A program made the position numbers and the translations under genes. The notes under the pieces were generated by a model. The model was not told the DNA's origin. It saw only the letters and a program-made list of their open reading frames with translations, and did no database searches. Of a stretch of DNA of 16,227 nt, positions 7,895-8,836 are shown one piece after another; position 1 is the first letter of the stretch; every line of letters begins with the position of its first letter. The DNA comes from a bacterium. Lineage in GTDB: Bacteria > BMS3Abin14. The stretch is from assembly GCA_020352595.1 (NCBI GenBank), contig CP070682.1:1668411-1684637 (forward strand), in the 5' to 3' direction.

Positions 7895-8511
7895 GGGGAC
7901 AACGCTCCTTCCAGCGCCTCCAGGGCTTTCCTGGTGACGATAAGGCTGTCGAAGGACAGCACATCGTATACGTTGACCCTCTCGGGCGTGACGACCTTGA
8001 CCCACGTGAGGTTGGTGGAGGCTCTCTGGAGGTGGTCGGAAACGGCGTCCACCACCAGCAGCGCGCTGATGACGTCGAAGCGGTCCATGGCGGCAACGAG
8101 GTCCCTGGTCTTCGGGGACTCGAGGTTCACCTCCTCGAGGAGGATGAGGCTGCCTGAGGCGGCCTTGTGGGCCAGAGCCCCCTGGAGCGCCTTCCTGGAC
8201 ATCTTCTTGTTGATGGCCTTGGAGTAATCCCTCGGGTGGGGCCCGAAAACGGTCCCCCCTCCCCTCATCTGGGGCGCCCGGATGGTGCCCTGCCGTGCCC
8301 GTCCCGTACCCTTCTGGCGAAAAGGCTTGCGCCCGCCTCCGGACACCTCGCGGCGCGTCTTGGTGGAGTGGGTCCCTCTTCTGGTCCCGGCCCTGGCGCT
8401 GACCACGGCCTGGTGGATGACGGACGGGTGCCCCGGACCGGTCCACCAGGGGGCCAGCTTCACCTTGCCCACCACTTCATTTTCAATACTGAGCACATCC
8501 ATCTGAGGCAT
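7891..8511 (-). CDS. rplD: 50S ribosomal protein L4
   Basis: L4 (uL4) binds early to 23S rRNA, and its extended loop lines the peptide tunnel; in E. coli it also represses the S10 operon. The 206-aa product has an N-terminal [16 protein letters not shown] strand, the [20 protein letters not shown] stretch, the tunnel loop [20 protein letters not shown] at about residues 64-83, and the C-terminal Rossmann-like half. Residues 20-32 ([13 protein letters not shown]) are unusual, because most bacterial L4 proteins have an acidic/hydrophobic segment of the type VFxxE there. The start at 8511 has TGAGGGG about 8 nt upstream; an in-frame ATG at 8502 is an alternative. It directly follows rpsJ, with rplC absent. 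Confidence 0.97.
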
Positions 8512-8524
8512 AACACTGACCCCC
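8512..8524 (-). other. rpsJ-rplD junction: expected rplC (L3) is absent
   Basis: In nearly all bacterial S10 clusters rplC, about 600-640 bp, lies between rpsJ and rplD. Here the two genes are separated by only 13 nt, which together with the rpsJ TGA supply the rplD Shine-Dalgarno sequence (TGAGGGG). Both flanking genes are full length. None of the other reading frames in the window shows L3 motifs, and no remnant is visible. Whether L3 is encoded elsewhere cannot be judged from this window. Confidence 0.93.
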
Positions 8525-8836
8525 TCAGGAGAGTTTGATCTCGACGTCCACGCCGGCCGACAGGTCCAGTTTCATCAAGGCGTCCACCGTCTGCGGGGTG
8601 GGTTCCACGATGTCGAGCATCCTCTTGTGGATCCGGATCTCGAACTGCTCCCGGGACTTCTTGTCGATATGCGGCGAGCGAAGGACCGTGTAGATGCTCC
8701 GCCGGGTGGGCAGGGGAATGGGACCGCAGACCCTCGCCCCGGTCCTTCTGGCGGTTTCCACGATCTCGTTCACCGAGGCGTCCAGGATCCTGTAATCGTA
8801 GGCCTTGAGCTTGATCCTAATCTTCTGCTGTTCCAT
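8525..8836 (-). CDS. rpsJ: 30S ribosomal protein S10 / NusE
   Basis: S10 (uS10) is a 30S head protein and, as NusE, pairs with NusB in transcription antitermination and with NusG in coupling transcription to translation. The 103-aa product equals the E. coli length and has [20 protein letters not shown] (about residues 5-24), [20 protein letters not shown] (38-57), and [20 protein letters not shown]. It ends VDVEIKLS. The ATG at 8836 is clear, with AAGG immediately upstream and GGAGG further off. It lies 71 nt after tuf, so the str and S10 groups are contiguous. No hairpin resembling the E. coli S10 leader is apparent in that gap. Confidence 0.99.

Follow-up and report, generated by a model that had tools for sequence, protein, structure and literature searches.

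L3 is an early assembly protein of the 50S subunit. Its gene, rplC, normally shares one operon, the S10 operon, with the genes of its partners, and the canonical order there begins rpsJ-rplC-rplD. In the bacterial DNA analyzed here, a stretch of 16,227 nucleotides (the window), rpsJ is followed directly by rplD. The locus raises the question of what became of rplC, and of what may control a ribosomal protein gene that stands outside its operon. The reading that best explains the results as a whole, to which we assign a probability of roughly 0.7, is an ancestral relocation of rplC combined with a leader through which L3 would regulate its own gene.

The genes of the window all lie on the minus strand, in the order rpoC-rpsL-rpsG-fusA-tuf-rpsJ-rplD-rplW-rplB-rpsS-rplV-rpsC-rplP-rpmC-rpsQ-rplN-rplX, with more following; rpsJ, rplD, tuf, and rplW to rplX were named by Pfam and the remainder by eye from the translations of the open reading frames. 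The rpsJ gene (ribosomal protein S10; 8525..8836, minus strand) is full length at 103 codons (PF00338, E 9.9e-38) and ends in a TGA stop at 8525-8527. The rplD gene (ribosomal protein L4; 7891..8511, minus strand) is likewise full length, with 206 codons from an ATG at 8511 (PF00573, E 2.4e-64). The usual rplC site between them is a junction of 13 nt (8512..8524, minus strand), at which a G-rich, Shine-Dalgarno-like run overlaps the rpsJ stop. Each of the ten downstream genes checked, from rplW to rplX, fits its own Pfam family. When compared with the canonical operon, the other checked genes are in their usual order, but rplC is absent and the junction is closed. A search of the whole genome with PF00297 gave one match, located outside the window, and thus neither a remnant of L3 nor a second L3 is seen in the window at the sensitivity of this profile. 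The preliminary description, which had reported two full-length genes 13 nt apart, a Shine-Dalgarno sequence at their junction, an otherwise complete S10 cluster, and no L3 elsewhere in the window, is borne out on all of these points.

The single match is one intact copy of rplC. The genome of the window consists of a single contig of 2.16 Mb, scored as 73.7% complete, and carries the gene at C1:2008096-2008920 (plus strand), approximately 331 kb from the junction and on the strand opposite to the S10 cluster, with tatA and an arsR-type regulator downstream. The earlier suggestion that L3 is encoded elsewhere was thus correct, and rplC is, with near certainty, relocated and not missing.

The phylum of this genome is represented in our sample by 12 genomes, all of one family (labelled f1). 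Both rplC and rplD were found in 11 of the 12, each of the 11 having a single PF00297 match; the exception, G010 (71% complete), gave neither gene. In all 11 genomes with rplD, rpsJ and rplD adjoin, with 11-15 nt from stop to start and no rplC between them, and in all 11 rplC lies elsewhere, without S10, L4, L23, L2, or EF-Tu in its flanks (up to about 1.5 kb a side). Its neighbors recur as well. The tatA gene is beside rplC in 10 of the 11 loci (it is absent in G004), and an arsR-type regulator, a putative lipoprotein ORF, and a putative aminotransferase ORF, the latter two identified by eye, are each present in 10. The distance from rplC to the S10 cluster varies, being approximately 33 kb in G008 and more than 1 Mb in G001. 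Taken together, the closed junction and the rplC-tatA pairing fit one ancestral relocation, in which a single departure of rplC from the S10 cluster, in the common ancestor of this phylum-level lineage, would have been followed by clean closure of the cluster. The relocation is old and is fixed in the sampled lineage.

A misassembly or binning error that dropped rplC from the window has next to no probability, for although the genome is incomplete and many of its relatives are fragmented into tens to hundreds of contigs, the junction is repeated in every relative with rplD and the rplC-tatA pairing in 10 of 11, including the single-contig genomes G001 and G008. A junction common to the family cannot be an assembly deletion confined to the genome of the window, and we reject such a deletion and a pseudogene alike, as the relatives lack rplC at the junction and PF00297 reveals no remnant. 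The evolved rearrangement that had been favored over a pseudogene from the window alone therefore stands, with the junction closed in the relatives and rplC intact at another site. As a separate observation on the new site, a selenocysteine tRNA gene is located about 8 kb upstream of rplC in G001 and G002 (L127, 18499-18592, minus strand; L129, 1342-1435, plus strand), and a set of ORFs (c37-c43) between this tRNA gene and rplC is common to both genomes.

The L3 ORF of the window's genome has 274 codons and comprises a standard bacterial body of approximately 212 residues followed by an acidic tail of approximately 60. It scores 280.5 bits against TIGR03625 (NCBIfam L3_bact; cut-off 142.9), with residues 5-205 of 274 aligned to model positions 2-202 of 202, and the best-matching PDB chain covers residues 4-212. 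The last 60 residues have a net charge of -18. The C-terminal tail is negative in all 11 family genomes, with 12-99 residues and charges of -3 to -35, where the lengths depend on our own choice of cut point. Among the closest 70 L3 protein clusters, tails are negative in 63 of the 64 that were parsed (six were unparsed), and E-rich tails also occur on some more distant L3s, such as P0072, P0081, and P0105, so the acidic tail is not unique to the f1 lineage; these sequences suggest more than one origin of acidic L3 tails. Long E-rich C-terminal tails were observed in other lineages on P0074 and P0077 as well as on those three, P0081 being labelled Syntrophobacterales. The preliminary description had also named prmB, for the L3 methyltransferase, as a gene worth looking for. 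No PrmB proper was found in the 12 family genomes: TIGR03533 matches all 12, but its curated cut-off is reached by none of them (and by 1 of 14 controls), and the sub-cut-off matches are probably PrmC, a PrmB paralogue. At the L3 position that we take to be the glutamine methylated by PrmB in E. coli, the family has Q, A, or P.

Lone rplC genes also occur outside this family. We surveyed a 290-genome sample that appears to have been drawn in rounds, with approximately one genome taken from each phylum each time; L3 was placed in the 150 best-scoring genomes and in 15 that were added (165 in all), and L4 was placed in 150. Both places were available for 92 genomes among the matches listed, which do not form a random sample, and 88 of these genomes are outside f1. 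Among these listed matches, L3 lies within 3 kb of L4 in 74 of the 88, with the canonical gene order, and farther away in 14. In the DNA examined around these genes, all 14 have rpsJ directly before rplD and L3 elsewhere without genuine adjoining cluster genes. Near the L3 of G091, a match resembling S10 was rejected as spurious, as it sits within a longer ORF that is an aminotransferase by eye. In G186, two EF-G-like stretches lie approximately 2-3 kb downstream of the lone L3, and the L3 of G039 likewise stands by itself in a locus of 3.3 kb. S10 or L4 is found no farther than 2 kb from L3 in 78 of the best 80 named L3 loci. The two that have neither, L044 and L048, belong to genomes in which rpsJ also adjoins rplD; the L044 genome is apparently G109 (same L4 place and score) and thus adds no extra case. 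No named locus among the best 80 matches listed exceeds 58% identity to the f1 L3 alignment. The earlier statement that this is almost always the site of rplC holds for the 74 linked genomes but not for the other 14, and relocation of rplC is a kind of event that recurs across lineages.

It is conceivable that such genes did not move within each genome, but that the native rplC was lost and a free-standing rplC was gained from another phylum, with lone genes being passed between phyla. The host tree, built from S10, L4, L23, L2, S19, L22, and S3 (84 rows), needs nine changes of the lone or canonical label, at least six of which are forced by well-supported branches, and a single clade of lone-rplC hosts is rejected (p-AU 0.004 with 78 rows and a quick LG+G4 tree; 0.0006 without G091 and G044). 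L3 itself allows what the host concatenation does not, since one clade of 21 lone L3s is not rejected by the L3 data (p-AU 0.20; 79 rows of a short, poorly resolved protein), and a quick L3 tree groups 14 of the 16 other lone L3s with those of f1, at a support of 87 and along with seven canonical ones. Both results speak for such xenologous replacement. However, L3 offers 212 columns and most deep branches of its tree are unsupported; one lone-L3 clade appears in 0% of 200 L3 bootstrap trees, in which 7-9 changes are typical. Moreover, f1 adjoins G091 in the host tree (96) but is apart from it in the L3 tree, and the neighbors of L3 in L044, L048, and G091 are unlike those in f1. We consider replacement from another phylum improbable and favor relocation of the gene in an ancestor of the lineage, although some transfer of lone rplC genes may be involved.

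It had been proposed that moving away would remove L3 from the dosage control of its own operon. The gene is indeed outside that operon, but the proposal is incomplete, as a promoter-like block and a conserved, structured leader precede rplC at its new site. In the genome of the window, a sigma-70-like block (TTGACG - 17 nt - TATCTA) precedes rplC, and a DNA alignment places TTGAC and TAnnnA upstream of rplC in all 11 f1 genomes. We call this block promoter-like rather than a promoter because it was missed by a simple consensus promoter scan of the window's genome (the -10-like half fits TATAAT poorly); the label rests on its conservation and on the 17-nt spacing in that genome. Upstream of the lone rplC genes of other lineages, TTGAC is found in 9 of 16, at -54 to -86 (within 90 nt of a start chosen by script). 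In the G110 family, where seven genomes were searched and G292 gave no L3, TTGACA occurs at -71 to -86 in all six lone rplC genes (L228, L230, L232, L233, L145, and L151). It is therefore plausible that an own promoter is a common outcome for lone rplC. The upstream regions of five same-group lone-rplC pairs show short local likeness only.

The 5' leader of rplC in f1, of approximately 65-110 nt, is conserved in all 11 genomes (11 sequences, eight genera) and, to judge from the promoter-like block, is presumably transcribed. All 11 leaders contain the blocks CTAAA.CAT.C and GGATAAGAT just before the Shine-Dalgarno sequence. Across the f1 genomes, the 73 nt before rplC include 12 invariant columns, compared with 0 before tatA (n = 10), 1 before rpsJ (n = 11), and 0 at 150-223 nt before rplC (n = 11) in control regions. 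The consensus fold has 15 pairs in three helices. The outer helix, P1, pairs a UUCUCC-like strand with the GGAGG of the Shine-Dalgarno sequence; P2 pairs CUA with UAG; an internal loop of 4x4 nucleotides reads AAMC / AAGA; and the inner helix, P3, pairs AUYCRYC with GGYGGAU. Five pairs have double changes, which occur in helices 1 and 3 and not in helix 2; as P2 hardly varies, covariation is no test of it. The covariation score is 0.315, shuffles average 0.227, and 0 of 500 shuffles attained the observed score, in a control that ignores relatedness; for one of five covariation measures (pairs changed on both sides), the observed value was reached by 57 of 500 shuffles. Cells are paired at 93.9%, as opposed to 40-48% when slid.

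Folding z-scores are negative in all 11 sequences (-0.87 to -2.74) and are weakest in G007 and G006 (-0.87 and -0.88). P2 and P3 are present in 10 of the 11 single-sequence best folds. The best fold of G011 is without P1 and P2 and pairs GAUAGG with CCUAUC around the Shine-Dalgarno sequence, and G007 forms P1 partly. The leaders L011, L013, L014, and L026 also allow GAUAGG and CCUAUC to pair directly ahead of the start codon, in an alternative hairpin around the Shine-Dalgarno sequence that is the best fold of L013; this hairpin might be a second state of a switch. Taken as a whole, the leader is very probably a real RNA element.

A covariance model built from the same 11 leaders (R1) detects the rplC leader in 11 of the 12 f1 genomes at E 9e-15 to 7e-10, with two weak matches besides (E 0.25 and 0.69); the scoring covered 150 candidates in each genome, out of several hundred or more from a first look. 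R1 has no match in the window or in three other f1 S10 loci, and upstream of lone rplC genes in other lineages it gave nothing convincing, the best match being L044 at E 2.1; in six G110-family members, no f1-like leader was apparent by eye. The leader is thus no general consequence of relocation, and as far as tested, this structured element appears specific to the f1 lineage. Rfam gave no match on the strand of the leader at its position. On the opposite strand, Rfam gave a match to the fluoride riboswitch that is below threshold (19.7 bits against a gathering score of 34, E 0.0022).

A promoter-like block and a leader that covers the ribosome-binding site imply that lone rplC may not be without control. 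In E. coli, operon-level control is described in the available text of PMC10931766 as L4 acting on S10. We propose that L3 in surplus over 23S rRNA would bind the element formed by P2 and the internal loop, and that bound L3 would stabilize P1, hide the Shine-Dalgarno sequence, and repress its own translation. Such feedback would replace the operon-level control that rplC lost on moving. Alternatively, the conserved 5' region may be only a promoter with a translation-tuning stem and no L3 feedback, as would agree with the lone rplC genes of other lineages, which have TTGAC or TTGACA close upstream in the numbers given above and no such leader. This simpler account is less likely, in that the invariant blocks CTAAA.C and GGATAAGAT are located 3' of the promoter block, inside or beside covarying paired elements, and the outer helix covers the Shine-Dalgarno sequence instead of exposing it. 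For the function of the leader, we lean slightly towards autoregulation by L3, as proposed here.

The leader may have a counterpart in rRNA. The 23S rRNA of the f1 member G002, in its Rfam structure, has a helix near the 3' end in which UAG pairs with CUA, with the flanks AGA|UAGG and ACUA|A. P2 and the loop of the leader have the same flanks with the strand order swapped; the identical stretches are 5-7 nt, which could be chance, and the likeness is accordingly suggestive only. The available text of PMC9687910 reports uL3 to be important for domain VI stability in the 50S cores of E. coli. In its fullest form, our proposal is that rplC repeatedly escapes the S10 cluster and that the f1 copy evolved the first L3-specific autogenous leader, which would copy the domain VI UAG/CUA element near the 23S 3' end, bind surplus L3, and close the Shine-Dalgarno sequence. 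We put this forward tentatively, at a little under even odds. If true, relocation and new feedback control would go together. Separately, the 23S 3' domain was not found in the single-contig genome of the window or in several relatives, and a 420-nt 23S query matched 5 of the 12 genomes.

Autogenous leaders have been described for L1, L4, L10/L12, S8, S15, L20, and other ribosomal proteins, according to the available text of PMC10931766 and PMC7247131. The rplC leader resembles them as a structured 5' leader over the ribosome-binding site with possible likeness to rRNA, but its candidate ligand, L3, is absent from the known set as given in these sources. No L3 leader is named in the available part of Table 1 of PMC7247131 or in the available text of PMC10931766, and the latter treats uL3 as an early assembly protein without presenting it as a repressor. 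Genes that leave a cluster while the operon stays otherwise intact, such as rpmJ and rplJL, have been described for Gammaproteobacteria and Bacilli (PMC8046335, in the text available). In those cases, as here, a gene leaves and the operon remains intact; here, however, the gene is rplC, a term absent from the main text of that paper as available, and it leaves in several lineages. Among the matches listed in a search of the open-access literature, no title or abstract reports a lone rplC or an L3 leader. What is new is the candidate L3 leader.

The repeated escape of rplC amounts to a set of natural experiments that ask whether stoichiometry depends on membership of an operon. A leader bound by L3, if true, would add a new ligand to the autogenous regulators among ribosomal proteins.
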